Origin: a virus
DNA length: 64,000 bases
Direction: 5' to 3' (one strand)
IMG/VR virus record: IMGVR_UViG_3300032093_000035
Coordinates: 48,403 to 112,402 of that record
Below, one piece after another: positions 1 through 51,717 of this stretch. Under the pieces are notes generated by a model. It was not told where the DNA came from. It saw nothing but the letters and a program-made list of their open reading frames with translations, and did not search any database. Positions within the stretch are counted from its first letter, which is position 1; each line of letters begins with the position of its first letter. Made by a program: the position numbers and the translations under genes.

Positions 1-777
1 GCTAAAAAAATGTTGGATAATAAATCAATCAAATTGATACGTGCTAGTTTTCAAGGTGGTGCAAGTAATTCATGGGGTGGAAAAGCTACTGGGTTTGACT
101 TCGAATTAAATAATACAAAAGCAACGCCAACAGAAACTGTATTATATCAAAAAAATAAAGATCTAGCAGCTCAACGCGCTGAAGCATGTAAAACTGCATT
201 GCTACCATTATTAGAAAAATCCGGAATAAAATTAGGAGCATCTCTACCAAATAACACGGTTATTTCTAGCGCAGTGTATAACACCGGTGGTAAACTAGAT
301 TTAGCTGGGCAAGTTATAACGGTTAGATTAACTTTTAGTTATTTATCAGTGACTGATATAATCACAATAACTGATATTAAACCTACATTTATTGCCCATG
401 GGTCATACTATACAAAAGATGGGAAATCATCAACAGGTAGAATAATTGACCCGACAAGTTTAAAAACTAGTACTAGTGCATTACCACCACAGTTAAAAGC
501 AATGCCAAATCGGTTAGCAGCATTTGAAGTAAAATGGAATCCTGGAGTTTTAAAGGATCCACTAAAAATTCCATGGTATCGTTGGTTATTTGTATATGAC
601 GAACAAGGAAAGATTAAACAAATTATAGGCAAAGTTTATGATACAACATTAAATGCAAATTTACGTAGTATATTTAAAGATAATGATAATATCCCAACAA
701 ATGATCCAACTTTAAAATATATGATGGATTTGGTATCTGCAAATTATTATAATACATACTTCAAACCATTTGTTTAA
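1..777 (+). CDS. Probable virion-associated protein, 5' end outside window
   Basis: The reading frame is open to the window edge; the first ATG in view is at position 10, but the codons before it are also sense, so the true start probably lies upstream. The visible 255 residues have no signal peptide. A stretch around residues 49-72 (NKDLAAQRAEACKTALLPLL) resembles the helix of OmpA-like domains, where NxxLxxxRAxxV precedes a GI-type turn, and it is followed by a beta-rich TVRLTFSYL segment. The C-terminal half is rich in Trp, Pro and Lys with no catalytic motif I recognise. It shares rightward orientation and style with the next two rightward genes, which look like injected or virion proteins. 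A hairpin terminator follows. Function unknown; the OmpA-like resemblance is weak. Confidence 0.6.
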   Translation, partial: AKKMLDNKSIKLIRASFQGGASNSWGGKATGFDFELNNTKATPTETVLYQKNKDLAAQRAEACKTALLPLLEKSGIKLGASLPNNTVISSAVYNTGGKLDLAGQVITVRLTFSYLSVTDIITITDIKPTFIAHGSYYTKDGKSSTGRIIDPTSLKTSTSALPPQLKAMPNRLAAFEVKWNPGVLKDPLKIPWYRWLFVYDEQGKIKQIIGKVYDTTLNANLRSIFKDNDNIPTNDPTLKYMMDLVSANYYNTYFKPFV

Positions 778-1535: not shown

Positions 1536-1844
1536 ATGAAACATAGTTTACAAGAAAATATGCGTCGTTTTGGCACTAAAAATCTAAAAGAATCAGTCGA
1601 TACTGCAGAATTAGATGCTAAATTAGAAGCAATTAATGATGATGATTTAGAAGGGTTTATCGAAGTAATGACTGCAATTGAAAATGCAGGTCCTATCGAT
1701 GAATGGCTTAAAAAAGTTGCTAAAGCAATTCGTCGTAAATGGTACCGGATGACAAAACGATACAAATATAAATTGGATCAGCGTCGTTTATTAAATGCAT
1801 CTCGTAGATTGTGGGATACAATGAAACATGATATAGGATTATAA
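1536..1844 (+). CDS. Small basic protein with ENMRRFGTKNL motif
   Basis: A 102-aa protein with an acidic centre (residues 20-50) and a very basic C-terminus (KAIRRKWYRMTKRYKYKLDQRR), suggesting nucleic-acid binding. Residues 6-17 (QENMRRFGTKNL) match residues 9-20 of the following gene (AENMLRFGVKNL), so the two share an N-terminal module. Start supported by AGGAA 4-9 nt upstream and by the late-type motif. It forms a two-gene rightward unit with the gene at 1858. In the second protein the shared module is preceded by LLAE, so it may be part of a capsid-targeting signal. Exact function unknown. Confidence 0.7.
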   Translation: MKHSLQENMRRFGTKNLKESVDTAELDAKLEAINDDDLEGFIEVMTAIENAGPIDEWLKKVAKAIRRKWYRMTKRYKYKLDQRRLLNASRRLWDTMKHDIGL

Positions 1845-1857
1845 ATTTAGGAAGATA

Positions 1858-3378
1858 ATGAAATTAGAAAAATTATTAGCAGAAAATATGCTTAGGTTTG
1901 GTGTTAAAAATTTAAATAATACCGATGTGCATCAAATCTTAACCATAATGGAACAAGCTGCAGCTGCAGGTACTGAAAGCTCCGCGGTTACATCGATGCC
2001 AGCATATAAACCAGTACTAGACTGGTGGAATAAAAAATCAAAAAATAATAGTTCAGCAAAAAAATATCTAGAATATTGGTCTGGCGGTGTTGCTAAAGAA
2101 TCTAAAGGTATTAATGTTAATGCAACTAATACATTATTAAAACATTTACAAACTTTAAGTAAAAATAATGTTTATAACTTAGATCAAAATAAATTACAAG
2201 AGTTTACCGACTATTTACAGACAAGTATTTCTGCTAATATTTATTTTGAACCTAGAAGTTTTGATCAGCGACCAGAAACTCGTGCTATACGCATATTAGC
2301 TATGTTAAAACCAGAATCAGATCCTACTAAAACATCATTAGCTACTAATGAAAAATCTGCTATTAGTGCATTCAATAAGGCAGATTTAAATAAAATTAAA
2401 GCATCTCTAGAGAAAACACAATTTGTTTATACTACAATTACCGAACAAGATAAAATTGCATTACTAAAATATTTTGAAGAAAAAGCTACACAAAAAGCCA
2501 CAGTTCATAATAAAGCTAATGCTGATAACCCGTTAGGAAAATTAGTACAATGGAATATGGAAAAGGCTATTAAAGAAGCTTCAAGCATACGAATTGGACC
2601 TGGCAAAGGATCTATCGAACGAGAAGAAGCAGCCGATCCGACGCCACCAGAAATATATACATATACATTTTCATATCCAGATATAACCGCTACTAATCCT
2701 AAATTACAAAATTTTTTCTTAGGAGATGATAATGTTGCAGTGTCTGCTGAGAATGAAACTGCATTTAAAGAAACATTAGAAACTTTACTAAATTCAATAC
2801 CTGCAGATCAAAAAATAATTGAGGTATATATAAAAGCTGGATCGTCAACAAGTAAAGTTCCAACATCATATAAATCTGCTGGAAAATATACAACTGCTGC
2901 AAATGTAACATTAGTTGATGATCGCTTGACAGCAATACAAACATCTTTGTCAAACGTTGTTGATACAACAATACCAAAAGGAGAGTGGAAATTAATTGTC
3001 GACACACCAGAACGTAAACCGAATAACGGCCCTGAATGGACTGACGCTGATCGAGCTGCATATCCATTAGCTAAACGACGTAAAACACTAGAAAATGGAA
3101 CTGCTAATCCACAATATGATCAAAAAATAGTTGATGCATATGAAGCAAAATATGGTAATTACAAAGGAAGTTACGGTCAAATATCTATTAAAACAACATC
3201 GACTATAACTATACCAACTACTACCGCGCCGGCTATTAAAGTATCTGGAGAATGGTATGGATCTATATCATGGCCTTCCCCAGGAAGAGGTAATGGTAAA
3301 CCAAAAACTATACCTGGAAAAAATAAAGGTGAAAAAACATGGACCGGTCAGGGAACGTTAGATTGTCCAATTTGGTAA
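1858..3378 (+). CDS. Probable injected/virion protein with LLAE-ENMLRFG N-terminus
   Basis: The 506-aa product starts MKLEKLLAENMLRFGVKNL. The first nine residues have the short-basic-then-(L/I)xE layout shared by many proteins in this window, and residues 9-20 are shared with the preceding gene. The middle is helical and Lys/Asn-rich; the C-terminal third (from about residue 260) is beta-rich with IIEVYIKAGSSTS and GEWKLIVDTPE, followed by a helix KIVDAYEAKYG, reminiscent of the layout seen in the partial protein at 1-777. The end is Gly/Pro/Trp-rich. AGGAAG precedes the ATG. A strong terminator follows. No enzymatic motif found. Confidence 0.7.
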   Translation: MKLEKLLAENMLRFGVKNLNNTDVHQILTIMEQAAAAGTESSAVTSMPAYKPVLDWWNKKSKNNSSAKKYLEYWSGGVAKESKGINVNATNTLLKHLQTLSKNNVYNLDQNKLQEFTDYLQTSISANIYFEPRSFDQRPETRAIRILAMLKPESDPTKTSLATNEKSAISAFNKADLNKIKASLEKTQFVYTTITEQDKIALLKYFEEKATQKATVHNKANADNPLGKLVQWNMEKAIKEASSIRIGPGKGSIEREEAADPTPPEIYTYTFSYPDITATNPKLQNFFLGDDNVAVSAENETAFKETLETLLNSIPADQKIIEVYIKAGSSTSKVPTSYKSAGKYTTAANVTLVDDRLTAIQTSLSNVVDTTIPKGEWKLIVDTPERKPNNGPEWTDADRAAYPLAKRRKTLENGTANPQYDQKIVDAYEAKYGNYKGSYGQISIKTTSTITIPTTTAPAIKVSGEWYGSISWPSPGRGNGKPKTIPGKNKGEKTWTGQGTLDCPIW

Positions 3379-3426: not shown

Positions 3427-3975
3427 TTAATTACAAACGGTTAAACATGCATATAAATATTCTGAATTATTATTTCTAGAAATAGAAACCGCAATCTTTG
3501 TAATATCATTGCGAAGAAGAATATTATTATGTGGTTTACTATTTTTCCATAATTCAAATATTGACTGATCGTGTGGAATATTTTTTATAAAATTTGAATA
3601 TAAAGATGAATTAGTAGAACATTCTGCTATAACTTTTACAGAACGATTCATGAAAAATTCAATACGCTGTGTAATACCACTCATTCCTAGAGTTTCATTA
3701 TAATGTGTTACTTCATTAATATTAGACATATAAACAGATTGATAATCCGCAGCGAGATATAAAGCAGAATCAAAAACTAGAGCTGATAGTCCGTTTTGAA
3801 TTCGATATTCATTTATTCTCGCAATAACGCTAGATTCATACGCCTTACAATCAAATATAGATGTAGATTTTGTTTTTGCATCTACATGTTGTTGATATGT
3901 AATTTGCGTAACATTATTTTGCGAAAATAATACATTAAATGTAAATACACTAAATACTAGGAATAACTTTTTCAT
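3427..3975 (-). CDS. Secreted CAP-domain (SCP/PR1-like) protein, copy B
   Basis: A 182-aa paralogue of the protein at 840-1427. It has the same signal peptide opening (MKKLFLVFSVFTFNVLFSQ) and CAP-type segments: ESSVIARINEYRIQNGLSAL near residue 45, EVTHYNETLG in the middle, and FELWKNSKPHNNILL near residue 140, the position of the CAP W..S..H motif. Sequence identity with copy A outside the signal peptide is low, so the duplication is old or the copies evolve fast. Extracellular or periplasmic location is expected in the infected cell. The two copies flank the rightward gene pair. Function unknown. Confidence 0.6.
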   Translation of the reverse strand: MKKLFLVFSVFTFNVLFSQNNVTQITYQQHVDAKTKSTSIFDCKAYESSVIARINEYRIQNGLSALVFDSALYLAADYQSVYMSNINEVTHYNETLGMSGITQRIEFFMNRSVKVIAECSTNSSLYSNFIKNIPHDQSIFELWKNSKPHNNILLRNDITKIAVSISRNNNSEYLYACLTVCN

Positions 3976-9049: not shown

Positions 9050-10819
9050 TTATAATTTTTTAACGCCAACGTGTATATGGTTATCATGATCTCCTTCTGG
9101 AGTACGCCAACCAAATTGATATCGATATCCGTCTTTATTAACATTAAACCATTTCCCACCTTTGTATTCCGGATGACCAAACCAATTCATGATGTGTGCT
9201 AGTAGTTCATCACCTTTAGCTAAATTTTCTGGGGTTGGTTTACCGGTAAACAAATCTACTGCGTATTTATTTAAACTACCAACCCAATGGTCTGATGTGG
9301 CACCAGAGCTAGTTTTAACTGTGGTTCGCTTTTGGGATGTAACAATGTTTTTACCAACAAATTTATTTGCAACATTTGCAACTTCTAAAGCTTTTTGCAT
9401 TGAGCCGGCCCAATCACCGTCAATGCCACCTGGGGTAACTTTACCGGAATCAACAGCACCTTGTGGTAATCCAAATGTAGATGCAGCGACGGTAGCTAGC
9501 GTACCAGTGCCTAATATCCCAGACATCACATTGGTTAAATTGGTCCAATCAGTCTCAGCATCTTTTTCATCTTTTGCATCTGCTGGCGCTGTTGTATCAA
9601 AAAATTCCCTTGCATATTTTTTACGCTTATCGTATGTTGCTTGATTTGCTTTTGGACGTTCAAATTTCTTACAAAACATATCCGCAGCTTCTTCTGGATC
9701 TTCTGTGGTTTTCAATGTTTTATACAAAGAGTTATATGTTGGTTTTGATAATTCCCACAACAAGAAATCTAATTGGCCTTCAATTGAATATGGATCTTTA
9801 CCATTTTGCTTAGAATACTGAATTAATCCATTTTTACCGGTCCAACGATCATTATGCCATTGAGCTAATCCAATCGATGTTCCATGGTCACCTTTAATCG
9901 TAGTACTAAACGTCCCAGCTGATTCAACATATAAATTTGCAGTAACGCCTGCTGCGCCTGCATCGGATAATCCTTTTGATTTCAGATAATCTATAATCGT
10001 TTTTGCAGTGCCTCTTTGTTCGGTACCAACTGTAACTTTTGTATTGTCGACAGCTACTATCGGGGCAACTACAGGTGCAACTTTTAGTGCTTCAATTTTA
10101 TCATCAACTTTACCTGCTCGAATTTCATCTTTAGTAGCAACAATACCACGTTTATTTAGTTTTTGCTGTATGTCATCAATATCATATTTTTTACCAGCAA
10201 CAGTTACTGTCTCAGCAGCCGAGTCTTCCGAATCAGTGGATCTGCTAGGTATAGTATCAGATAGTACGGAAATCGCAGCTTTAAAGAGTTTGGAGTTTGC
10301 TTCCTGATTTAAATCGTTTCCAGATTTTGAAAAATATTCTCGTTTATCAGTTAAAAAATTAATATCAATAATATCATCCGCATCAGCATTAGTTGTTAAC
10401 CAATTATTAATCGTGTTAATCTTTTTTTCAAATTTTTCGTCTACCTGATCTTTTTTATTGTCAATATAATCAAAACTAGGTATAGTGCATAAAATACATT
10501 TAACGTCTGCTTTTTGGGCAAATCTAATTATTAATCGAAAATTTTCAATTATGTTTAGCAATGTCTTGTTTTCATTGCGACCACTACAAAAAACAACAAC
10601 AGCATTATAACCGTTATTAATTTCATTGCGCACGGTGTTCATCATTGATTCTGAATCAGCACCTGGTTCAATAAATTTAGCGCCATCGATTGTTTGTAAT
10701 CGAAATAAACGATTCATGAAACTATATTTAGGTTTTGAGAATTGATCACCTACTAATAATACACGAGCCGTTTCTGGAGCCGGTTTGTCTTCGAATAATA
10801 AAGATTTTAATCGTATCAT
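9050..10819 (-). CDS. Tagged SGNH - tail lysozyme - M15 peptidase fusion
   Basis: A 589-aa multidomain protein. Residues 1-10 (MIRLKSLLFE) are the shared capsid-targeting-like tag. Residues 18-195 look like an SGNH/GDSL fold (RVLLVGDQFSKP start, VVVFCSGRNEN strand, ILCTIPSFD). Residues 270-400 match phage tail lysozyme (AAGVTANLYVESAGTFSTTI, SIGLAQWHNDRW). The C-terminus (about 500-589) has the M15/VanY-type zinc pattern SDHWVGSLNKYAVDL ... DHDNHIHVGV. It should cut peptidoglycan in two ways. With the tag it may be delivered from the particle. The unit upstream overlaps its start (ATGA). Confidence 0.8.
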   Translation of the reverse strand: MIRLKSLLFEDKPAPETARVLLVGDQFSKPKYSFMNRLFRLQTIDGAKFIEPGADSESMMNTVRNEINNGYNAVVVFCSGRNENKTLLNIIENFRLIIRFAQKADVKCILCTIPSFDYIDNKKDQVDEKFEKKINTINNWLTTNADADDIIDINFLTDKREYFSKSGNDLNQEANSKLFKAAISVLSDTIPSRSTDSEDSAAETVTVAGKKYDIDDIQQKLNKRGIVATKDEIRAGKVDDKIEALKVAPVVAPIVAVDNTKVTVGTEQRGTAKTIIDYLKSKGLSDAGAAGVTANLYVESAGTFSTTIKGDHGTSIGLAQWHNDRWTGKNGLIQYSKQNGKDPYSIEGQLDFLLWELSKPTYNSLYKTLKTTEDPEEAADMFCKKFERPKANQATYDKRKKYAREFFDTTAPADAKDEKDAETDWTNLTNVMSGILGTGTLATVAASTFGLPQGAVDSGKVTPGGIDGDWAGSMQKALEVANVANKFVGKNIVTSQKRTTVKTSSGATSDHWVGSLNKYAVDLFTGKPTPENLAKGDELLAHIMNWFGHPEYKGGKWFNVNKDGYRYQFGWRTPEGDHDNHIHVGVKKL

Positions 10820-10962
10820 CTGCCTTGAGCTACATATGATTTAACGTAATTTGTGGCATTCTTGCTTGAACTGGTTTTAGTTTTTGCATGAATACCTGGA
10901 CGTTTAACCTTTGGTTTTTTAATGTGTACTTTTACATTACTTGTTTTTACTTTCGCTGCCAT
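10816..10962 (-). CDS. Small basic KRPGIHAKTKTS protein
   Basis: A 48-aa, strongly basic protein (MAAKVKTSNVKVHIKKPKVK, then RPGIHAKTKTSSSKNATNY). I recognise this K-x-KRPG-[IV]-H-[AS]-K style from small unnamed proteins of many phages. Its TGA overlaps the ATG of the next gene (ATGA). Probably nucleic-acid binding, function unknown. Confidence 0.65.
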   Translation of the reverse strand: MAAKVKTSNVKVHIKKPKVKRPGIHAKTKTSSSKNATNYVKSYVAQGR

Positions 10963-11059
10963 AGCTGTTACCTTTACATGTTACTAATTCATAAACTGCA
11001 TATAACCCACCGATAACCATTATGGCACAACCGATAATAAAAGCAAATAACCTATTCAT
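10937..11059 (-). CDS. Small single-pass membrane protein (40 aa)
   Basis: A 40-aa frame, MNRLFAFIIGCAIMVIGGLY, with one membrane segment and a polar tail. It overlaps the next gene by 26 bases. A GATATTTATTAATATG string at the start provides the late-type motif, with almost no leader. Real but of unknown function. Confidence 0.5.
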   Translation of the reverse strand: MNRLFAFIIGCAIMVIGGLYAVYELVTCKGNSYGSESKNK

Positions 11060-11079
11060 ATTAATAAATATCAAACAGT

Positions 11080-11110
11080 AAAAAAACCCGGGCCGCGATA
11101 GCCCGAGTCT
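11080..11110 (-). terminator. Terminator after the tagged 126-aa gene
   Basis: Minus-strand hairpin CTCGGGC ... GCCCGGG followed by seven T residues, located downstream of the gene ending at 11143. Confidence 0.85.
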
Positions 11111-11142
11111 TAACTATATTCGCCTAAGGTAGCAGACGCTCT

Positions 11143-11523
11143 TTATTTCTTGAATGTTTCTCTTAAAATATAATCATTGCCTTTAAGATTGCGAAGGATT
11201 CTTTGTTCTAAAGGAATTTCACGCATTTCTTGCAAACCTGATTTTTTAATTAAAGTAGATTCATTTTTTTCTTCTTTATCAGCAAAAGCTTTTTTCATTG
11301 ATTCTTCTTCATCACCATCATTATCGGCATCGATATAATCTGGTCTTGCTGACTCATCTACATCTGATTCTTCTGATTCATCATTGAATGGCATATTCAA
11401 TTCTGCTTCCTCACGCAGTTTGGCTTCGTATGCTGCGGTTGTATCTGCGAGGGTAGGAAGGGGCTTACCTTCTTCGCGTTCCCAGGCATACCCTTCGTTT
11501 AATATTGATTTTAGTTTGATCAT
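11143..11523 (-). CDS. Tagged acidic virion/injected protein
   Basis: The 126-aa product begins MIKLKSILNEGYAWE, carrying the recurrent tag with an ILNE/G junction. The remainder is very acidic (NDESEESDVDESARPDYIDA) with a basic helical end (EQRILRNLKGNDYILRETF). The start at 11523 was chosen over an upstream in-frame ATG because the tag, the AAAGGAAC leader and the late-type motif all point to it. The acidic body recalls scaffold or internal head proteins, without a specific match. Confidence 0.7.
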   Translation of the reverse strand: MIKLKSILNEGYAWEREEGKPLPTLADTTAAYEAKLREEAELNMPFNDESEESDVDESARPDYIDADNDGDEEESMKKAFADKEEKNESTLIKKSGLQEMREIPLEQRILRNLKGNDYILRETFKK

Positions 11524-11537
11524 TTTAGTTCCTTTAT

Positions 11538-11546
11538 TATAAATAT
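11538..11546 (-). promoter_or_regulatory. Late-type ATATTTATA motif
   Basis: Minus-strand ATATTTATAATAAAGGAAC ends a few bases before the start at 11523; typical example of the late class. Confidence 0.5.
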
Positions 11547-11576
11547 GTAGTACGTTGTAAACCAATTACAAAATAA

Positions 11577-11598
11577 GTGCGCCCTTCCAGGGCCGCAC
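11577..11598 (-). terminator. Probable terminator
   Basis: Minus-strand hairpin GTGCGGCCCT GGA AGGGCGCAC with one unpaired base, followed by TTATTTT, just after the gene ending at 11603. Confidence 0.65.
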
Positions 11599-11602
11599 AA
11601 AG

Positions 11603-12172
11603 TTACATGCTTGGATCGGCCGGAGTATCAATGCCAGATGCATCGGGTCGGGCTTGACCCTGTTTGCGCACCAAGTACAATTTTGTTGATCCATGCTCTA
11701 CACGGAAATCGCTCAGATCCGGATTGGTTTGTAGGAAGCGGGCATATATGCGTGATTTTTGTTGCTCCTTGTCCGGGTTGTTGTCTCCTCCAGTTATATC
11801 AATCACATCTACCGCCGCATGCGTATCCGCAAAATCGCGAATTGCAAGCCCAATAGTTTTGAAAAACCGCAGCGTGTTCGTCTCACCAGCAGCTGCGCTA
11901 CTACGAGCCGATGTAGTCCAATTGGCCCGGGCGTCTCGAACAGCAGCCATTTGACGATCTTGGGTAAAGAAAGCAAATTGCCATTCTCCCGTGTCCCCGA
12001 ATTGAGAACGATAGTAGTGGTCGAACTTGATCAGGATGGGGTGGGCATCGGCTTGGATCTGCGTTTCGAAACTTTTGGCATCGCCCCAACGATCACGCCA
12101 CGTGAACTGCGTTGTGTATGGTTGAACCCCAGCTAACGAGATTTCCGCAAGTAAGTTGCTTAATCGTATCAT
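11603..12172 (-). CDS. Tagged hypothetical protein, probably injected
   Basis: A 189-aa protein beginning MIRLSNLLAEISLAG, so the tag is followed by E/I. The body is mixed alpha/beta (FTWRDRWGDAKSF, HPILIKFDHYYRSQ, VDVIDITGGDN) and ends with a Pro/Asp-rich tail. An in-frame ATG 28 codons upstream was rejected because the tag and the spacing to the preceding gene favour 12172. Codon usage is more GC-rich than in its neighbours, which may indicate recent acquisition. Function unknown. Confidence 0.7.
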   Translation of the reverse strand: MIRLSNLLAEISLAGVQPYTTQFTWRDRWGDAKSFETQIQADAHPILIKFDHYYRSQFGDTGEWQFAFFTQDRQMAAVRDARANWTTSARSSAAAGETNTLRFFKTIGLAIRDFADTHAAVDVIDITGGDNNPDKEQQKSRIYARFLQTNPDLSDFRVEHGSTKLYLVRKQGQARPDASGIDTPADPSM

Positions 12173-12173
12173 G

Positions 12174-12560
12174 TCATGATAATAGTTTTTTGCGTTGCAT
12201 GTCCCGAATGCTTTGTTTGTGCCATTTAGTTGCAAGATCCATTCTACTAGCAACAAATTGAAGCAATGATTGACCTTTGCTGTTTTTTGGCGATTTCATC
12301 CACAAGTTGTTAACGCGTGTGTAAAGACCTTTTTTTCGTGACATTGCAATGAACGCTGCTTCCACAGCAGCTTCTTGCGTACCTAACAAGTTGTCAGTGA
12401 AACGCAGAATTATGCGCAGAATGTCCGCAGGATTAACTAGACCCTCAATAGTGCGATATGGAATTCCAAGATCGATTCCAGCACGTGGATCAGACCCAAT
12501 AGCTCCAATGATTTTATCTAGCATTGATTGTTCTGTTAATATGTGTTTTAAACGTATCAT
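12174..12560 (-). CDS. Tagged hypothetical protein, probably injected
   Basis: A 128-aa protein starting MIRLKHILTEQSML. The tag equals that of the next gene upstream at eight residues but uses different synonymous codons. The body has a GIDLGIPYRTIEGLVNPAD segment and a basic helical end (RDMQRKKLL). A late-type motif and AAAGGAAAC leader precede 12560, which rules out the longer in-frame start. Function unknown. Confidence 0.7.
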   Translation of the reverse strand: MIRLKHILTEQSMLDKIIGAIGSDPRAGIDLGIPYRTIEGLVNPADILRIILRFTDNLLGTQEAAVEAAFIAMSRKKGLYTRVNNLWMKSPKNSKGQSLLQFVASRMDLATKWHKQSIRDMQRKKLLS

Positions 12561-12573
12561 TGTTTCCTTTATA

Positions 12574-12582
12574 TATAAATAT
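12574..12582 (-). promoter_or_regulatory. Late-type ATATTTATA motif
   Basis: Minus-strand AATATTTATATATAAAGGAAAC before the start at 12560. Confidence 0.5.
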
Positions 12583-12620
12583 TGTTTCCGCATAAATGCT
12601 GGAAACGATTCACAGCCACG

Positions 12621-13082
12621 CTATTTGTCTTTTATTCCCGTCCAATCATAACTAGTACTCGACCCACCATCACGTTCCAATTCCATGTACGATGCAGTTT
12701 CCTGTGATATAGAATACCCACGCAAAGCGCGCAGCACATAAGCCCGGTATAAACGCATTCTGCGTGGATCAGATTTGGCTACTCCGAACACCACTGTTTC
12801 AGGACGCCACTTCTCCACTGCCTTGCGGGCAATCTCAACTATGGTGCTCATTACACGGTACACATCCGATTCCGCGGTCTCCACATCATGATCCCATCCG
12901 CCTTGTGGGTTCTTCGTAGCAAACGCAATTTCCATGACCTCATCAGATCCATATGGAAATGACACTTGATACATGGTACCACGCTCTGTTTCGAAATAGG
13001 CTTCTCCGTTGTACATGTTGTATGGGTATGGTGTCGCCGTGCCTTCCCCTATCTCTGCTAGTATGTGTTTAAGACGTATCAT
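12621..13082 (-). CDS. Tagged hypothetical protein, probably injected
   Basis: A 153-aa protein starting MIRLKHILAEIGEG. After the tag comes a beta-rich region (EAYFETERGTMYQVSFPYGS), then a helical segment and VVFGVAKSDPRRMRLYRAYV near residue 100, a pattern reminiscent of acetyltransferase-like or RNA-processing folds but not diagnostic. Its ATG lies 3 bp from the gene upstream. Function unknown; association with the particle is inferred from the tag. Confidence 0.7.
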   Translation of the reverse strand: MIRLKHILAEIGEGTATPYPYNMYNGEAYFETERGTMYQVSFPYGSDEVMEIAFATKNPQGGWDHDVETAESDVYRVMSTIVEIARKAVEKWRPETVVFGVAKSDPRRMRLYRAYVLRALRGYSISQETASYMELERDGGSSTSYDWTGIKDK

Positions 13083-13085
13083 GTA

Positions 13086-13385
13086 TTACATGTTGTTTGC
13101 ATTTATAAACATGAACAATGGATTTTGTTCAACATATACATCAAATACATTGGCTGCAAAGTCAGGACGTTGTGCGATTGGATACTTTGTTTTGATTGCT
13201 TCGAGATCTGTTTTTAAATACGAATCTAGATTTTGAAGTTTTCCTTCATTGTATAATTGCAATGCCATACCAACAATTTTAACTTTTTCTTGTGAAGTTA
13301 AAGCTTTTGGCATTTTAATATCTGCTTCATTAAGTGATGTATTATTTAAATAACGTTTCCAATTGTTTAAATATGGTTTATTCAT
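13086..13385 (-). CDS. Small virion-type protein with SLNE site
   Basis: A 99-aa protein, MNKPYLNNWKRYLNNTSLNE then ADIKMP. The W-K-R-Y-L start with SLNE/A at residues 17-21 looks like a longer relative of the capsid-targeting tag. The rest is helical. An AAAAAAGGAAC leader and a late-type motif lie upstream. It is the first gene of the late block next to the G/C-run hairpins. Confidence 0.65.
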   Translation of the reverse strand: MNKPYLNNWKRYLNNTSLNEADIKMPKALTSQEKVKIVGMALQLYNEGKLQNLDSYLKTDLEAIKTKYPIAQRPDFAANVFDVYVEQNPLFMFINANNM

Positions 13386-19262: not shown

Positions 19263-19502
19263 TTAACTTTTTTTAAACTTTTCTAAAACTTTTTTTGCAG
19301 TGGGAGGCGCTATGCTGTTAGTGAGTGCTTTGTATTGCACTATATCTAATCTAGCTTCCACATTTGCTAATGCAACTCCCACTTCGTCATCCTGCTGAAA
19401 TAAATCAAATGATTCCATAGCCTTCCTCAATTCCGTAACGGTTGTTCTTAAGCTTCTAATTTCATTTCGCAAATCGTTGATTTCTTTAACTTCTTTTTTC
19501 AT
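19263..19502 (-). CDS. Small coiled-coil early protein
   Basis: A 79-aa protein with a leading coiled coil (EINDLRNEIRSLRTTVTELR) and a Lys-rich end (VLEKFKKS). The A-tract codons at its end directly precede the next -33 element. No family recognised. Confidence 0.6.
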   Translation of the reverse strand: MKKEVKEINDLRNEIRSLRTTVTELRKAMESFDLFQQDDEVGVALANVEARLDIVQYKALTNSIAPPTAKKVLEKFKKS

Positions 19503-19524
19503 ATCTCTCTTTTAAATTAATACT

Positions 19525-19558
19525 TAAATATAAGGAATAAATCAATGCGTGTCAACCT
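19525..19558 (-). promoter_or_regulatory. Early promoter, TTGACA class
   Basis: Minus-strand TTATATTTA and TTGACACGC for the gene at 19502. Confidence 0.7.
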
Positions 19559-19584
19559 TTTTCCAAGAAAAGTTTAAACTTTTT

Positions 19585-19959
19585 TTACTCGAATACTCGC
19601 ACTCGGCCGGATTGGAATCCATTACCAGCCTTTGTTGTTTTAAACTGACACCATATTGAAAACTCATTTCCGTCTTCCACCCACTCCACGATAGCATCCA
19701 ATCTGTCAATGATGCGCTGCAGCTTAGCTTCGGTTAGCAATCCACTTTCCAATAAAGGTCGGCAACCAAACGATGCACAACCTCTAGCTTCATTCGCCGC
19801 AATCCGGATCTTTTGTGGGACTAGCTCTTCAATCGCAGCATCTAGTGCCTCATCATCAACCTGGAATGTATCATATCCGGTTAATAGTTTCGTGTACTGT
19901 GCTACTGCATACTCTGCCATTGCTTCAACGGCTCCTGGAATAAATTGTGTCTTTTTCAT
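19585..19959 (-). CDS. Early hypothetical protein
   Basis: A 124-aa protein: helical N-terminus (AMAEYAVAQYTKLLTGYD), a central RGCASFGCRPLLESGLLTEA segment with two Cys, and a beta-rich end (FSIWCQFKTTKAG). No known domain recognised. Confidence 0.65.
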   Translation of the reverse strand: MKKTQFIPGAVEAMAEYAVAQYTKLLTGYDTFQVDDEALDAAIEELVPQKIRIAANEARGCASFGCRPLLESGLLTEAKLQRIIDRLDAIVEWVEDGNEFSIWCQFKTTKAGNGFQSGRVRVFE

Positions 19960-19977
19960 ATCTCTTATTTTAATACT

Positions 19978-20011
19978 TAAAGATAAGCAAAATAATGTTC
20001 GGTGTCAACCT
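19978..20011 (-). promoter_or_regulatory. Early promoter, TTGACA class
   Basis: Minus-strand TTATCTTTA and TTGACACCG for the gene at 19959. Confidence 0.7.
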
Positions 20012-20020
20012 TTTTGCAAA

Positions 20021-20209
20021 CTATTTTTCAGGAATCTCATCTGAGTCATACATCTCGAATTCTCCCGGACCACCTTCTTCGACAAATGATTCCTGGAACC
20101 CGTGCCCGTTTTGCACCAATGCCAATGCTTCCTCTTCGGTCTCAGCAAAGATCTCATAATACTGGATTACCGTTGTTTTGATGCGCTCTTCGAATCTAAA
20201 TACTTTCAT
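20021..20209 (-). CDS. Small early hypothetical protein
   Basis: A 62-aa acidic protein (MKVFRFEERIKTTVIQYYEI) with a strand-helix layout containing AETEEEALALVQNG, a common small-domain pattern in phages. The start at 20209 was chosen over an upstream ATG inside the preceding small frame. No promoter of its own is obvious. Confidence 0.6.
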   Translation of the reverse strand: MKVFRFEERIKTTVIQYYEIFAETEEEALALVQNGHGFQESFVEEGGPGEFEMYDSDEIPEK

Positions 20210-20213
20210 TGGT

Positions 20214-20294
20214 TTATTTTTTAAAGTCCTGATTATAAATGTTGCTGATGCTAACAATCAGCGCTAAAACTAAAACTATTCCTACTACCTCCAT
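20214..20294 (-). CDS. Possible 26-aa membrane peptide
   Basis: A very short frame, MEVVGIVLVLALIVSISNIY, forming one membrane segment. Its ATG lies within the final codons of the gene upstream (overlap of 10 bases) and it stops 4 bases before the next start. Coupling makes it plausible; its size makes it uncertain. Confidence 0.4.
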   Translation of the reverse strand: MEVVGIVLVLALIVSISNIYNQDFKK

Positions 20295-20449
20295 GACTCG
20301 TCGTTTGGTGGCCAAAATGATATTTGCCACCACCCACCTGCGATTCGAGTAAGCGGTCCTGCTGTGTACCCACCCGATGGGTATTTGTTCATTTCGCGGG
20401 TAAGATCCCGGAACAACTCGGCTCTGTCATTTGATTGTAATACTATCAT
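20285..20449 (-). CDS. Small early hypothetical protein (54 aa)
   Basis: A 54-aa frame, MIVLQSNDRAELFRDLTREM, then GGYTAGPLTRIAGGWWQISF, ending PPNDESWR. A helix followed by a Trp/Gly-rich strand. Preceded by AATAAGAGACAATG. No match known. Confidence 0.55.
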   Translation of the reverse strand: MIVLQSNDRAELFRDLTREMNKYPSGGYTAGPLTRIAGGWWQISFWPPNDESWR

Positions 20450-20461
20450 TGTCTCTTATTT

Positions 20462-20710
20462 TTAGTTTATTACCTCAGCCCAACTGCGTGTGAATCCACC
20501 CTCAATCTCATTGTATGACTTGTTTAAAGCCGTTACCAATGCTGTGATGCTTTTCGGCTTCCGATTGATTTTATGATTCCAACTGTTGCCACATTCCAGG
20601 GTGTATCCAAACACATTGCCTACTAGGTACTCAACAGTACCCTCATAAATCGTTTCCCGGGATCCTGACATCCCTGACTTCGTAATCTTAACTTTAAATG
20701 ATTTTGCCAT
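20462..20710 (-). CDS. Small early hypothetical protein
   Basis: An 82-aa protein beginning MAKSFKVKITKSGMSGSRET, beta-rich, then basic NHKINRKPKSITALVTALNK. Its own promoter lies at 20733-20767. Function unknown. Confidence 0.65.
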   Translation of the reverse strand: MAKSFKVKITKSGMSGSRETIYEGTVEYLVGNVFGYTLECGNSWNHKINRKPKSITALVTALNKSYNEIEGGFTRSWAEVIN

Positions 20711-20732
20711 ATTTCTCTCTTTTTAATTTTAT

Positions 20733-20767
20733 TAAAGATAAGCATTTTTAGATTAGGATCCTAATCT
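20733..20767 (-). promoter_or_regulatory. Early promoter, GGATCC class with perfect palindrome
   Basis: Minus-strand TTATCTTTA with GATTAGGATCCTAATC at -33, a perfect 16-bp palindrome and therefore a possible dimer operator. Confidence 0.7.
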
Positions 20768-20770
20768 TTT

Positions 20771-20980
20771 TTAAACTTTTTTTACAATTCCTGCTGCTAA
20801 AAGTGCCTGGATAAGCTCCTCATTCGGCACAAAGCCATTCGGCATAAATTGATCCAGGTAAGTGTCGGTTACTGGTGCCTCCGCATCCAATTCCTCATTA
20901 AACTCGGCTTCCAGGATCCCTTCCAGGAACTGCGCTAGCTCTGCGGCTAGGGTAATGTCAATCTTAAATTCTCTTTCCAT
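20771..20980 (-). CDS. Small acidic early protein
   Basis: A 69-aa acidic helical protein (MEREFKIDITLAAELAQFLE) ending in a short basic KKV. No family recognised. Confidence 0.65.
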   Translation of the reverse strand: MEREFKIDITLAAELAQFLEGILEAEFNEELDAEAPVTDTYLDQFMPNGFVPNEELIQALLAAGIVKKV

Positions 20981-21000
20981 TTCTCTCTTTTAATTTATAT

Positions 21001-21034
21001 AAAGATAAGCAAAATAACCATGCGTGTCAACCGT
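21001..21034 (-). promoter_or_regulatory. Early promoter, TTGACA class
   Basis: Minus-strand TTATCTTTA and TTGACACGC for the gene at 20980. Confidence 0.7.
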
Positions 21035-21244
21035 TTAGGCAACTTTTTTCAAAAAATATTTCAACTCATATTGAGCTGAGATCGGATCCTCATCATATGC
21101 TCCTCCGGCCCACTCGGCTACAAATGCACGAAACCCATTGGAATTCTTTGTGTTGATGTCAGATGCTTTAGCTGCTGCTAATTCTTCCGCGGAAAAAGTA
21201 ACCCATGTACTCAATTCCAAAAACATGTCATTCAATGTTGTCAT
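21035..21244 (-). CDS. Small early hypothetical protein
   Basis: A 69-aa protein (MTTLNDMFLELSTWVTFSAE) with a Trp-containing helix FRAFVAEWAGGAYDED and a basic end. Its stop lies 1 bp from the adjacent -33 element. Function unknown. Confidence 0.65.
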   Translation of the reverse strand: MTTLNDMFLELSTWVTFSAEELAAAKASDINTKNSNGFRAFVAEWAGGAYDEDPISAQYELKYFLKKVA

Positions 21245-21267
21245 ATATCTCTCTTTTTAATGATACT

Positions 21268-21302
21268 TAAATATAAGAATAATTCTGATAGGATCCTAAT
21301 TT
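21268..21302 (-). promoter_or_regulatory. Early promoter, GGATCC class
   Basis: Minus-strand TTATATTTA and TTAGGATCC for the gene at 21244; it overlaps the last codons of the gene at 21296. Confidence 0.7.
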
Positions 21303-21490
21303 TTAGGCAACTTTTTTAATAAAGTTCTTCGCTTTGCTTTTAGCTTGCGGATCTCTAAACGGCGCAGGTATGGTCCGTGGTTATAGGTGCTTCCTGCCCA
21401 AGCCATCGTCCAAACCGTGTTGTCGCGCTGAAGGCATTCAATGTGATGATCGATGCGGTCTATTGCATCCTGGATCTCTTTTGGTGTCAT
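21296..21490 (-). CDS. Small basic early protein
   Basis: A 64-aa protein: acidic helix (IQDAIDRIDHHIECLQRDN), a central WAGSTYNHGPYLRR, then a very basic helix (KLKAKRRTLLKKL). Probably nucleic-acid or protein binding; unproven. Confidence 0.65.
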   Translation of the reverse strand: MTPKEIQDAIDRIDHHIECLQRDNTVWTMAWAGSTYNHGPYLRRLEIRKLKAKRRTLLKKLPKN

Positions 21491-21512
21491 ATCTCTTATT
21501 TTTTATAATACT

Positions 21513-21546
21513 TAAAGATAAGCAAAATAACCATGCGAGTCAAGCA
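21513..21546 (-). promoter_or_regulatory. Early promoter, TTGACT class
   Basis: Minus-strand TTATCTTTA and TTGACTCGC for the gene at 21490. Confidence 0.7.
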
Positions 21547-21571
21547 TTTTGCAAGAAAAGTTTAAACTTTT

Positions 21572-21877
21572 TTAATAATCATTTTCCAACAAAAATGCCT
21601 TGACGGATCCGGATTTATTTGCAATTAAATTTTCCATTTCTGCAACACTGCCGCGGAAATAAAATATTCTCGACTTCAAGCCCGGCACTCGGATTTCAAT
21701 GCGCTGATATAATTTCTTCCACCACCCGCGTCTCAGCATATCCGCATATTTTTTATTTGGATCCTTTGATGTGTTTCGGTCATACCCAAAAACTTCGCGC
21801 TGGATCCTGGTCTCGGATGCTAACACGGTTAGGTCCAAAAAATCAACAATCTGGTTCACTGAATTTCTTTTTGTCAT
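21572..21877 (-). CDS. Early hypothetical protein, basic centre
   Basis: A 101-aa protein (MTKRNSVNQIVDFLDLTVLA) with a basic middle (YADMLRRGWWKKLYQRIEIR) and a beta-hairpin (RIFYFRGS). It could be a small DNA-binding protein of winged-helix type, since a helix pair precedes the basic strand pair, but no clear helix-turn-helix motif is visible. Confidence 0.6.
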   Translation of the reverse strand: MTKRNSVNQIVDFLDLTVLASETRIQREVFGYDRNTSKDPNKKYADMLRRGWWKKLYQRIEIRVPGLKSRIFYFRGSVAEMENLIANKSGSVKAFLLENDY

Positions 21878-21899
21878 ATATCTCTCTTTTTAATTTTAT

Positions 21900-29837: not shown

Positions 29838-30062
29838 TTAATCTAATTTTAATCCAGCTTCTGATTTTAATTCATGCAATGTTTCTCGGATCTTTTCCAC
29901 TGCTTCATAAGCCTCACCGGTTAGTTTATCATTGTATTTTAACTCGCTTCGTAAGTGTTGGTCCAAGTCCCACACTATCATTTTCCATTTCCATCCATTG
30001 ATGGCTGACTCCATTTCTTCACGATCTTCGTCGAAGTCAAATTCTAAAGTTACCTTTGCCAT
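29838..30062 (-). CDS. Conserved phage protein of unknown function
   Basis: A 74-aa protein, MAKVTLEFDFDEDREEMESA, with WDLDQHLRSELKY in the middle and AYEAVEKIRETLHEL after it. This strand-helix pattern with the WDLDQ.LR motif is familiar from many phage genomes, always without a function. It overlaps the metallophosphoesterase gene upstream by 13 bases. Confidence 0.7.
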   Translation of the reverse strand: MAKVTLEFDFDEDREEMESAINGWKWKMIVWDLDQHLRSELKYNDKLTGEAYEAVEKIRETLHELKSEAGLKLD

Positions 30063-30775
30063 ATTATTTCATTTGTTATGTTATCCCATTCAAAGTGCCA
30101 TGGTTCCTGTGCATAATTGTATCGTTCATTCAACACTGCTGCATTGAAGTAGTGAGTGTGACCATCGAAGTAGTGTCCGTATCCTGAATGAATATGCCCA
30201 CATACATGTATCTTGGGACGTATAGTTTCAATACGCTTTGCCAATAACTCACAACCTAAATGCTGACCTCTTCGGCCTTCTACATCATCCAAGAAACCCC
30301 AAGCAGGCCCATGTGTCACTAGTATATCAATGTTGTCAGGAATATCATTCCACTTTTGTTCCAACTCCCAACCATCGCGTGGCAAGTTGAATGCCCAATC
30401 ATAAAACCAAGGTTGCCATGGCGAACCATATATGCGAACATTTTCTTCTGGCATATCGCCATTTGCACCATCATTGTATACTCCTAACCAATCATCTTCT
30501 AGGTACTCGATAGTCTTGTAACCTGTTAGTATGCCTTTTGCCTCTTCAGGCGCATCTTGCATCCATCGGTCATGATTGCCGGCAATGAACACTTTGGTGT
30601 CATAGCTGTTAAGTTGATCCAACCACTTGAAGAACATCATCGCTTCAGTTGGACTATATCCTGATGTCATGAAGTCTCCGGCATGGATCAGAATATCGCC
30701 ACCTGGAAGATCTTTACTTAACAAGTCATGCTTTGCGTGGGTATCTGATATTAATGTTATTTTATATTTTGCCAT
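30050..30775 (-). CDS. Metallophosphoesterase (MPPED-like)
   Basis: A 241-aa calcineurin-type phosphoesterase: LISDTHAKHD (motif I, residues 8-17), ILIHAGDFMTSGY (motif II), VFIAGNHDRW (motif III), LVTHGPAWGFLDD (motif IV) and IHVCGHIHSGYG (motif V). All metal ligands are present. The ordering and the THGP-type motif recall MPPED1/2-like enzymes. Nucleotide or nucleic-acid phosphodiesterase activity is likely; the substrate is unknown. It is paired with a second, shorter enzyme 4 bp upstream. Confidence 0.85.
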   Translation of the reverse strand: MAKYKITLISDTHAKHDLLSKDLPGGDILIHAGDFMTSGYSPTEAMMFFKWLDQLNSYDTKVFIAGNHDRWMQDAPEEAKGILTGYKTIEYLEDDWLGVYNDGANGDMPEENVRIYGSPWQPWFYDWAFNLPRDGWELEQKWNDIPDNIDILVTHGPAWGFLDDVEGRRGQHLGCELLAKRIETIRPKIHVCGHIHSGYGHYFDGHTHYFNAAVLNERYNYAQEPWHFEWDNITNEIIWQR

Positions 30776-36654: not shown

Positions 36655-37479
36655 TTAATGTATTCGTTTTAATATGTCACTTAATCGGCTATACATTTCT
36701 ACTGCTATCGGTACTGACATCAGTGCAATAAGAAAATTGTTTACATACGAGTATACTGTAATCACACTACCAATTGTAACATGTTGGGTTGTAAGTACCA
36801 ACACTATGATCGACGCAAACAAAAATATGTTTTTAATCATCATGATGAGAAACCAATTCTTTCCTTGCAGAGTTGATTGGAATATCTCTAGTTGGCGCCG
36901 GCGATTAAAAAACAGCACTGAGGCATCATATCCAGCTTGTATAGCGTCTCCTTTGCGTTCATAATGTGTGTTCCTCAGTTTGATTGCCTGCTTTATTTTG
37001 CTGTATAGTAAGGTTACAGCAGCAAGTATCATCACGAATGCAATACTAACCAACACACCAACCTGCCAATTTTCTGAGTAAATAAACCCGATGGATCCTA
37101 CGATTGTAACAATGGTTGCGATATAGTAATGCACATATCCTTCCAATACATTAACAATATCATGGGCCATATCTGTTCTAGCAATTTTGGTTGATGCATC
37201 ATGATGCGGTTGCCGCAGAAATCGAAACACGATGCTGTTGTATATTCGAGTGTACACTTTGGTATCATACACCATTCGTTTATAATTAAAAAATGCAGAT
37301 AAGAAATATGAGGTTCCTAACAGCACCAACCAATGCCATGTGCCACTCATCAGGCCGTCAATGCTTTTACCAAGCAGAAATGGTGTTGCTAGATTAGACA
37401 GCTCGGTGACGAGCATGAACAAGTAAATGAATGATAGCTGGCGTCGATGCTGTTTGAATATCTCATAAATTTTATTCAT
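36655..37479 (-). CDS. ABC-exporter transmembrane domain without ATPase
   Basis: A 274-aa protein with about six membrane segments arranged like a type 1 ABC exporter membrane domain: QLSFIYLFMLVTELSNLATP with FLLGKSIDGLM at the first/second segment, FNYKRMVYDTKVYTRIYNSI in the first cytoplasmic loop, VGVLVSIAFVMILAAVTLLY, and a final ITVYSYVNNFLIALMSVPIA. It stops where the ATPase domain normally begins, and no separate ATPase was found in the window. Its start overlaps the tagged gene upstream by 8 bases. It may be a truncated host gene or an inhibitor. Confidence 0.75.
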   Translation of the reverse strand: MNKIYEIFKQHRRQLSFIYLFMLVTELSNLATPFLLGKSIDGLMSGTWHWLVLLGTSYFLSAFFNYKRMVYDTKVYTRIYNSIVFRFLRQPHHDASTKIARTDMAHDIVNVLEGYVHYYIATIVTIVGSIGFIYSENWQVGVLVSIAFVMILAAVTLLYSKIKQAIKLRNTHYERKGDAIQAGYDASVLFFNRRRQLEIFQSTLQGKNWFLIMMIKNIFLFASIIVLVLTTQHVTIGSVITVYSYVNNFLIALMSVPIAVEMYSRLSDILKRIH

Positions 37480-37975
37480 AGTTTAATTGATTAACGTCAC
37501 TTTGATCGTCGGGTATGCCGGTGAGTGAATATCTATCTTTATTTAGATCCGCAGCTAGTTTAGTCTTAATAAACTGCTCCTCGCCTACCGGATCATATAT
37601 GTTCCCTTGCGAATCTCGTACCCAGTAATGCGGAATAAACTTCCATTGATCAGCATATTCGCTAGTCTCAATCCACTGTTTTCTATCGTTAGCATCATTC
37701 CAATTCCCACCATCCGAAATAAACTCGCGTTTCATTTCTTCAGTGAAGTCAGCTTTATCGTATACGACTGAATCCGCCTTAAAATATCCTTCTACGCGAT
37801 TCAATTCTTGCGCCCCATGTTTTGTCAAAAACTGCATAAAACTCAACGCAGCAGGACCACAATTATCTCTTTTGCAGAAGTACTTCAGTTCCTTAGGACT
37901 TACGGTTTGTTTCCACTGAGCAATAAGACTCTCTGGCGATGCTGTCTCTTTCAATAAATCTTTTAATCGTATCAT
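37472..37975 (-). CDS. Tagged papain-like cysteine hydrolase
   Basis: A 167-aa protein beginning with the tag MIRLKDLLKETASP. The core has DNCGPAALSFMQFL (Cys at about residue 39, at the start of a helix), FIPHYWVRDSQGNIYDP (His near 115 and Asp near 127). C-G-x-A plus HxWV and YDP is the papain-fold pattern found in C39-like peptidases and some toxins. With the tag, it is a candidate enzyme carried in the head and injected at infection. Targets unknown. GATATTTATACGTATG precedes the start. Confidence 0.65.
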   Translation of the reverse strand: MIRLKDLLKETASPESLIAQWKQTVSPKELKYFCKRDNCGPAALSFMQFLTKHGAQELNRVEGYFKADSVVYDKADFTEEMKREFISDGGNWNDANDRKQWIETSEYADQWKFIPHYWVRDSQGNIYDPVGEEQFIKTKLAADLNKDRYSLTGIPDDQSDVNQLNYE

Positions 37976-47419: not shown

Positions 47420-47887
47420 TTACCAAGCTCGGCAAGACCAATATCTTGCTTTTGTGCGAGGGCCTGGATTTTCACAATTATGTCTAGCTCTGAATGATTT
47501 TCTACGAGCTGGATTAGATTTCTTTATGCGCATTGTTTTTTGACCAGCACGTTTTGCTGAGGTACCTCCGTGACCAAAGTTAACTTTAACTACATTGCCT
47601 TCTGCATTGCGTACATACACTTTGAACTTCTTGACATCGCCACGCATTGGTTTGCCCAATTTAACTTTGCGTCCTTGGTACTCAGCTTCATTAAGACCAG
47701 GTTCAATCAGATTAATATGTTCTGATTCATTAACACTGCGTTCAATGTATTCTACAAGACATTGAGCACAATATCCTTCTGCTTCTTTAATTGGAACACA
47801 GTTCGGAACTTTGCGTCCTCCTTTTTTCTTCATTCCAATCATTTCATATCCGGACCAGCATGGTGCAGATTCATCAATATAATTCAT
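47420..47887 (-). CDS. Conserved phage protein, KKSNPARRKSFRARHNC family
   Basis: A 155-aa basic protein with PCWSGYEMIGMKKKGGRKVP near the start, CAQCLVEY, then AEYQGRKVKLGKPMRGDVKK and KKSNPARRKSFRARHNCENP with a WSCRAW end. I recognise this C-terminal pattern from many large marine and freshwater phages, near head genes, without an agreed function. Cys residues suggest metal binding. Start overlaps nothing and follows 47888 directly. Confidence 0.75.
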   Translation of the reverse strand: MNYIDESAPCWSGYEMIGMKKKGGRKVPNCVPIKEAEGYCAQCLVEYIERSVNESEHINLIEPGLNEAEYQGRKVKLGKPMRGDVKKFKVYVRNAEGNVVKVNFGHGGTSAKRAGQKTMRIKKSNPARRKSFRARHNCENPGPRTKARYWSCRAW

Positions 47888-48634
47888 TTACAACTCCTGT
47901 CGTATTGCTAATTTAGGTAAATATGATTTCCAAGTTGCCAACACCTTTTGCATTTCTGCATCAGTGATAGCACCACTTTCCACAAAGCCTTGCAAGAATG
48001 TTGTTACTGCTTCGCGGAATGGTGTACGAGTCTTTTTTGCTTTAAGATATAGTCCATGTATCATTGCCGGAATTTCTTTTGGCAACATGAAGTATTTGAA
48101 TGGTGGCACTTGTCCAGCCTCAATCTTCTTTCGCAGTGGCATATCCGATGCAATGTATTTGCCATCAATAGTATTCCATCCTGATTGAGTGATATGTTCG
48201 ATTTCATGTCGTAGCACATCTCGCAATTGCATTGCAACCTCACTTAAAACCTTAGGATACTCTGCAGGATCAATTTCGAATCGTACTTCAATTAATGGTG
48301 GTTCATCAGAATCTCGTTTAGTGCTATTATAAGCATCGCCTCCATAATTAAAATTATTTAGGCCATCGATCCATTGCACTTTAAGTGAAAGATAAAACTC
48401 TAATGGAATAGTTTCGTTTGAAACCTCTTCAAAATATATCTCTTCAAGCTCATCACTAGTAATCTGTGGTGCAGTGGCTGCATCTGTAAAATATATCTTC
48501 TTGCCAGCAAACTCACCATTAGGATCCTTAGTTGATGCAAAACTATCTTTAACAACTGATAACAATGTACGCGATAAACTAGTAACTAACGCGTCATAGC
48601 GTCCTTCTGTAATAAGTGTTTTCATTGATATCAT
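47888..48634 (-). CDS. Tagged metalloprotease-like protein
   Basis: A 248-aa protein starting MISMKTLITEGRYDALV, where the tag ends ITE/G. The core has LRDVLRHEIEHITQSGWNTI, a zinc-binding HExxH with a following helix, near residue 150, and a helical end. The N-terminal half is beta-rich. A tagged, particle-bound peptidase is the simplest reading; a role in head maturation is also possible. GATATTTATTAATATG immediately precedes the start. Confidence 0.7.
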   Translation of the reverse strand: MISMKTLITEGRYDALVTSLSRTLLSVVKDSFASTKDPNGEFAGKKIYFTDAATAPQITSDELEEIYFEEVSNETIPLEFYLSLKVQWIDGLNNFNYGGDAYNSTKRDSDEPPLIEVRFEIDPAEYPKVLSEVAMQLRDVLRHEIEHITQSGWNTIDGKYIASDMPLRKKIEAGQVPPFKYFMLPKEIPAMIHGLYLKAKKTRTPFREAVTTFLQGFVESGAITDAEMQKVLATWKSYLPKLAIRQEL

Positions 48635-48645
48635 ATTAATAAATA

Positions 48646-49197: not shown

Positions 49198-49199
49198 AA

Positions 49200-49586: not shown

Positions 49587-49590
49587 AACC

Positions 49591-50202: not shown

Positions 50203-50253
50203 ACTATATTATATGAAATTATTTTGTGGTATCCAAATTGATAACTAATCAGA

Positions 50254-50580
50254 TTATTTGCTGTTCCGAATGATCAACTCACCTAAAACTTCTAATCGAC
50301 CTACTTCTCGTTGAAACTCGATTTGAGTCATGGAAGTAGATATTTTCTTGTAGGTAGCATCATATTCTTTTTTTGCGGCTTCTAAATCAAATTTACCTTC
50401 TGCAGCCCGTTTGTAGTATGGCAGTTTTACTTTGAAATGGTGCCATGTTAGTAGAGCTAACCCGCCTTTCTTTTTTGCATTGTCAGAAATCTTTTCTGCA
50501 CCAGACTCGCGGGTGTCAGCAAATGATTCAAAAGTATCTGGTTTGTCTTTTGCTTCAAAAAGTAAATTACGTAGTTTCAT
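50254..50580 (-). CDS. Tagged small hypothetical protein
   Basis: A 108-aa protein starting MKLRNLLFEAKDKPD, a nine-residue form of the tag with an LLFE/A junction. The body is basic and helical (KKKGGLALLTWHHFKVKLPY) with a C-terminal REVGRLEVLGELIIR. Probably carried in the particle. Function unknown. Confidence 0.65.
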   Translation of the reverse strand: MKLRNLLFEAKDKPDTFESFADTRESGAEKISDNAKKKGGLALLTWHHFKVKLPYYKRAAEGKFDLEAAKKEYDATYKKISTSMTQIEFQREVGRLEVLGELIIRNSK

Positions 50581-50592
50581 ATTAATAAATAT

Positions 50593-51231: not shown

Positions 51232-51236
51232 ATAAC

Positions 51237-51716: not shown

Positions 51717-51717
51717 G

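Follow-up and report, generated by a model that had tools for sequence, protein, structure and literature searches.

A shared N-terminal tag on diverse proteins of a T4-like phage as a probable head-targeting and processing signal

Why should proteins that mostly have nothing else in common begin with nearly the same ten residues? The question is raised by the virus record IMGVR_UViG_3300032093_000035 (112,402 bases), in which genes within bases 48403-112402 (the window, 64,000 nucleotides, to which coordinates refer unless given as record positions) open on the consensus M-I-R-L-K-x-L/I-L-x-E. The record belongs to a T4-like phage (portal phrog_213, E 1e-60; major capsid protein phrog_138, E 1.5e-69) that infects marine bacteria. 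Its capsid protein is nearest, among cultured relatives, to that of the Flavobacterium phages immuto (55% identity), and therefore the host is probably a flavobacterium. We propose, with a probability of about 0.82, that the tag directs proteins to the capsid and marks them for processing, in the manner of the capsid-targeting sequence of the T4 internal proteins.

A ten-residue tag on divergent proteins

The core motif ^M[IKL]x?[LM]xx[LIV][LIV]xE was scored at ATG starts, with the expectation obtained by shuffling residues 2-20. It occurs 10 times in the 112-kb record against 0.056 expected (at most 2 in 500 shuffles) and 13 times against 0.12 in G001, a 169-kb record that appears to be of the same species, its protease being 100% identical and its tagged proteins agreeing over the first 50 residues. 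In the relatives G002, G011 and G015 the counts are 12, 7 and 8 (0.17, 0.15 and 0.13 expected, respectively). Taken alone, (L/I)xE close to the N-terminus shows no enrichment in the 112-kb record (38 versus 33 expected), and therefore the signal is the whole tag. A longer leader, LAENMxRFGxKNL, brings two more tagged open reading frames beyond the 10, and 12-15 tagged genes are present per genome.

The original prediction, made from the letters of the window, had listed nine tags. All nine are present at their starts, and one more tagged gene sits beyond the window (record 29890-30426). The (L/I)xE ending, on which that prediction leaned, holds as part of the tag but not as a rule of its own. 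Its assertion that the proteins share nothing else is mostly borne out: the tagged bodies give no significant BLAST matches beyond the shared leader. The proteins encoded from 11603 and 12621 are nevertheless probably one divergent family, because relatives of the latter in G002 and G005 resemble the former.

Across 35 distinct genes of the tagged kinase described below, columns 2, 3, 4, 7, 8 and 10 are conserved and columns 6 and 9 are free, while Arg3 is written with four codons and columns 7 and 8 with five each. The synonymous differences already pointed out between the tags starting at 12560 and 13082 are correct (codon 4 TTA/CTT, codon 8 TTA/CTA, codon 10 GAA/GAG). The seven tags of the MI[RK]L type show an identity of 0.71 at codon positions 1 and 2 and of 0.55 at position 3; in the surrounding DNA it is 0.31 over the 30 nucleotides upstream and 0.25 over the 60 nucleotides downstream.

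The LxE rule was examined with a DNA pattern, ATGATACGNYTAAAANNNYTNYT, that fixes only residues 1-8 and leaves residues 9-11 free. Among the matches listed from IMG/VR, residue 10 is Glu in 69 of 78 open frames. These comprise 63 distinct bodies, 54 with Glu at residue 10 and nine in which the motif sits one residue earlier or later (LLE at 7-9, or LTE at 9-11); therefore all 63 carry LxE at residues 7-11. The reversed-pattern control found 31 stretches in the whole collection, compared with at least 119 for the tag pattern.

Protease, core locus and timing

The resemblance to a T4 capsid-targeting sequence had been put forward in the original prediction, which named the lack of a prohead protease in the complete genome as a refutation. 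A prohead protease of the S77/gp21 family is indeed encoded at record 11475-12101 (PF03420, E 3e-33; phrog_207, E 1e-54), and the likeness is well supported by this protease, by the tag on a core-locus gene and by the columns matching T4 IPIII. The S77 protease is found in 12/12 tag-bearing records of at least 74 kb that were searched. Among contigs of that size, it occurs in one of three controls compared with four of four found by the tag, numbers too small to carry much weight.

The decisive evidence comes from 12 sister loci, where the neighbour of the S77 protease gene starts with MIRLK(D/N)LLKE; where the protease is cut off, the tagged gene was counted within the protease-core-capsid cluster. 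The capsid protein of these loci, where present, is ~50-57% identical over most of its length, and the protease mostly 55-72%. The tagged gene is homologous to p11096 of the record itself, which begins MKTPNLKYILE (BLASTP against the family, E 1e-17 to 1e-19). Thus, a protein of the prohead-core locus bears the same tag. Other head-cluster genes of the record have short conserved leaders with LxE (MNKLKKLYRDFFGLTE and MKSFLREMEE), and the acidic core protein has ALQE followed by A. In mutants of the T4 IPIII capsid-targeting sequence, residues 4 and 7 govern targeting and residues 8 and 10 processing (PMC9026906); columns 4, 7, 8 and 10 of the present tag are conserved.

On the sense strand, the motif ATATTTAT occurs at most 60 nucleotides upstream of 7 of 12 tagged genes and 12 of 42 other genes of the structural block, but of none of 29 early-like genes, defined as the short-gene block at record 62-79 kb (window 13.6-30.9 kb). 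Fisher's test gives p = 3.5e-5 for tagged and 1e-3 for structural versus early-like genes. The motif precedes structural, chaperonin and tagged genes, and for 12174..12560 it is flanked by an upstream in-frame ATG (12593) on one side and the tagged ATG on the other. It is a candidate late promoter.

In the mechanism that we propose, the tagged proteins would be made late and bind the assembling prohead core via the hydrophobic tag residues L4, L/I7 and L8, whereupon the S77 prohead protease would cleave behind the (L/I)xE Glu. The released proteins would remain in the head with the DNA and be delivered on infection, and the cargo (kinase, proteases, peptidoglycan hydrolases and others) may help entry, early takeover or counter-defence. 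Binding, cleavage, presence in the particle, injection and cargo activities we infer from sequence and the analogy to T4. Cleavage and packing into the head are very probable; delivery to the host is probable.

Within the head-gene cluster also lies a ribosomal protein S21-like gene (record 10282-10527, L002, outside the window; phrog_21469, E 7e-4), which is kept in G002-G006, G011 and G015.

Cargo families, fusions and the second leader

Across the loci that were fetched, 54 body families account for 238 tagged proteins; internal GroEL starts and similar false positives were sorted out manually, and a few may have escaped. Few of the tagged proteins match Pfam or PHROGs. The most widespread is a minimal kinase of 178 residues. 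Its first AlphaFold model was poor; the second, from 40 sequences, was good (predicted local distance difference test score, pLDDT, 88) and visualizes residues 1-8 as unstructured ahead of a confident domain. Nearly all matches listed by Foldseek in the PDB are kinases (APH(2''), Lpg2603, OspG, RIO), of which OspG and Lpg2603 are bacterial effector kinases and APH are aminoglycoside phosphotransferases; the TM-scores are modest (0.31-0.46 on query). The viral matches include many phage kinases. Residues K50, D160, N165 and D177 are invariant, and the spacing of the catalytic motifs fits kinases. As judged from the model, the protein has a protein kinase-like fold. A PDB sequence search with the kinase profile found no protein kinase, and no bacterial relatives were found in genome_contigs.

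Table 1. Tagged genes of the record and one candidate (window coordinates unless stated)
N-terminus	Length (residues)	Coordinates	Strand	Body	Basis or remark
MIRLKSLLFE	589	9050..10819	-	Phage_lysozyme2 domain at 271-408	PF18013, E 2.8e-33
MIKLKSILNE	126	11143..11523	-	acidic, YAWER..LPTL family	core motif
MIRLSNLLAE	189	11603..12172	-	xPYxTQFxW family	core motif
MIRLKHILTE	128	12174..12560	-		core motif
MIRLKHILAE	153	12621..13082	-	DUF6934	PF22028, E 1.8e-7; core motif
MIRLKDLLKE	167	37472..37975	-	CGPAA...H, possibly papain/C39-like (by eye)	core motif
MISMKTLITE	248	47888..48634	-	HExxH metalloprotease-like	core motif
MKLRNLLFE	108	50254..50580	-		core motif; immuto homologue tagged too (MRLLELLRE)
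MIRLKQLLKE	178	record 29890-30426, outside window		kinase-like	core motif
MKLEKLLAENMLRFGVKNL	506	1858..3378	+		composite leader
MKHSLQENMRRFGTKNLKE	102	1536..1844	+		leader
MKNTLAENLLRFGAKNL	334	1..777 (record 48175-49179)	+		leader; start outside window
MNKPYLNNWKRYLNNTSLNE followed by A	99	13086..13385	-		candidate only; different N-terminus

By eye, the 589-residue protein has an SGNH-like N-terminal part and a peptidase-like C-terminus. A DRAT identity for the protein of 12174..12560 was not used, the match being below the curated cut-off. The gene family of 50254..50580 adjoins tagged lysozymes in several relatives. Tagged proteins in relatives include LysM-lysozyme, LysM-Phage_lysozyme2, M23-Phage_lysozyme2, cell-wall hydrolase-LysM, Zeta_toxin and DUF5872 types. 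Probable tagged genes of immuto (NC_055915; L123, L125) begin MISIYNILKE, with a kinase-like Gly loop, MIKLIDLLTE, MRLLELLRE, MQKLAGIITE and MQFLAGIITE; the MRLLELLRE gene is annotated as tRNA(Ile2) agmatinyltransferase. Three tagged proteins with YHAT/YHFT starts (L338:8794-9168, L269:8717-9133 and L230:16273-16716) look of the ADP-ribosyltransferase type by eye, and Pfam gave no support for such a fold in those of L338 and L230.

The HExxH and CGPAA effector domains (47888-48634 and 37472-37975) are encoded by separate genes in the window and are fused only in G012/G013 and in gp088 of immuto. The HExxH protein corresponds to the C-terminal part of gp088, and both bodies are domains of a 1198-residue protein of G012, which additionally contains a further HExxH-like segment and a 5'-nucleotidase domain. 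Tagged forms have ITE, IIE, IVE, ILE or FLE at the junction ahead of the HExxH domain, fused ones ILNE, IVNE or VMAE, and G(R/K)YD always comes next. In the YAWER family (11143..11523), the tag is swapped in G011 for a different leader that retains RLNE at this boundary. These sequences fit a cut site that persists while the preceding sequence changes. Next to the tagged metalloprotease gene, a 155-residue protein (47420-47887, minus strand) has the motif CWSGYEMIGMKKKGGRKVPNCVP near its N-terminus. Outside the window, an 831-residue protein (record 19400-21895, L003), a distant relative of the long G012 protein, has a start like that of nucleotidyltransferases (PGGFKPLTGAH), a KTDGQN motif that recalls RNA ligases, and the LxE sites ALQE, IIAE and ILTE at apparent linkers.

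MKLEKLLAE at 1858, previously read as a simple tag, is present but belongs to a longer leader, LLAENMLRFGVKNL, which is common to the genes at 1536 and at record 48175-49179. The three second-leader genes follow one another on the plus strand (record 48175-51780), the first two being separated by a single minus-strand gene. This leader has the form (L/I)xENMxRFGTKNLxE and is present on many genes in relatives too; it sometimes follows a normal tag (MKKLENILAENMRRFGTKNLHE), and a third LxE (LILTEQ) often comes next. These features suggest a longer leader with redundant cut sites. In the same region, the minus-strand genes 840-1427 and 3427-3975 have in common a signal peptide of flavobacterial appearance (MKKLFLVFS...FSQ), and the stretches upstream of them (TTTTCTTCTTATATTTATAATATAAAAGAGAGCC) are very similar.

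Alternatives, known systems and implications

The tagged proteins could instead be core or scaffold components that are consumed in maturation and do not reach the host. The tag on a core-locus protein in sister phages agrees with this, as does the cutting of T4 core proteins by gp21 (PMC9026906). However, many cargoes are, or resemble, compact enzymes (kinase, lysozymes, M23 peptidase, zeta-toxin-like), and the cargo set differs strongly among relatives, unlike scaffold genes; moreover, LxE density is ordinary in the cargoes, whereas p12103 and p12792 have two to three times the expected count. We consider this explanation unlikely. A second possibility, that the tag targets the tail, baseplate or host envelope and that LxE is incidental, draws on the several peptidoglycan hydrolases among the tagged proteins, which are typical of tails or lysis; the strict LxE rule, the co-occurrence of S77 and the tag on the gene beside the prohead protease make it very unlikely. 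Finally, a recent duplication of 5' gene ends or a conserved DNA or mRNA element with no functional peptide, to which the frequent ATA CGN TTA AAA codons and the clustering of tagged genes might point, can practically be dismissed, being already contradicted by residues kept through synonymous changes, by the unconserved DNA upstream (0.31) and downstream (0.25), and by the four codons of Arg3 and the five each of columns 7 and 8 across orthologues.

Several observations weigh against head targeting and processing. The tag has the pattern of MKTYQEFIAE of T4 but no sequence similarity to it; T4 IPI itself departs from MKTYQEFIAE, and likeness to that sequence is not essential to a T4-type system. 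Several cargoes of the lysozyme type may work in the tail or during lysis instead of from within the head. The major capsid protein of the record carries LVKE close to the T4 capsid cut position; this is likely its cleavage site and differs from (L/I)xE, and therefore the protease specificity may be slightly broader than in T4. Observed-to-expected ratios of internal LxE sites are 0.90 in tagged bodies, 0.72 in early-like genes and 1.38 in the structural block. The tagged bodies are thus not clearly depleted of such sites, and survival inside the prohead gains no independent support. No paper on immuto virion proteomics was found in the open-licence literature.

Like IPI, IPII, IPIII and Alt of T4, the tagged proteins combine about 10 N-terminal residues, hydrophobic or aromatic at 4, 7 and 8 and with Glu at 10, with an (L/I)xE end. 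Also as in T4, there are an S77 protease, the same head-gene order, non-homologous cargo that varies between relatives and, in the sister clade, a signal of the same kind on prohead core proteins. Unlike in T4, the tag is MIRLKxLLxE, tagged genes are as numerous as stated above and many encode enzymes or enzyme-like proteins, a second composite leader repeats LxE, and the hosts of the clade are probable Bacteroidota. The logic of finding injected proteins by their signal is already known for the T-even phages, where at least 10 further internal proteins were found by a shared N-terminal signal (Repoila 1994, as cited in PMC12373910), with a different clade and cargo; Ip1-3 inhibit GmrSD type IV restriction enzymes (PMC12373910). 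Relative to the open-licence literature, novelty lies in the tag sequence itself, in a cargo that is larger and often enzyme-like, in the composite leader and in the uncultured clade with one cultured relative.

The cargo also recalls the polyvalent proteins, in which a zincin-like protease, lysozyme and other effector domains are thought to be delivered with the DNA (PMC5512222). The long proteins of the G012 type resemble these, and two window bodies are domains of one of them; in contrast to multi-effector polypeptides, each window domain has a gene and a tag of its own. DarB of phage P1 is likewise targeted to the head by its N-terminus (PMC9024508), and a distant gp21 homologue cuts ejection proteins of phiKZ/SPN3US after Glu in head maturation (PMC9026906); as the papers describe them, signals and head type differ in both systems.

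For the clade, we lean towards the view that in a large group of uncultured T4-like phages one portable head-import tag arms particles with varying injected enzymes from more than 50 families, among them the kinase, the metalloprotease, a zeta-toxin-like kinase and peptidoglycan hydrolases, that domains move between long multidomain proteins and singly tagged genes, and that a second leader serves a separate cargo cluster. As a rule, virion proteomics is needed to learn which proteins a phage injects. With a tag that can be read from DNA, probable injected proteins can be listed for hundreds of phages that have not been cultured, and new early effectors or counter-defence factors can be predicted; the tag is also a possible short address for loading proteins into Flavobacterium phage heads.

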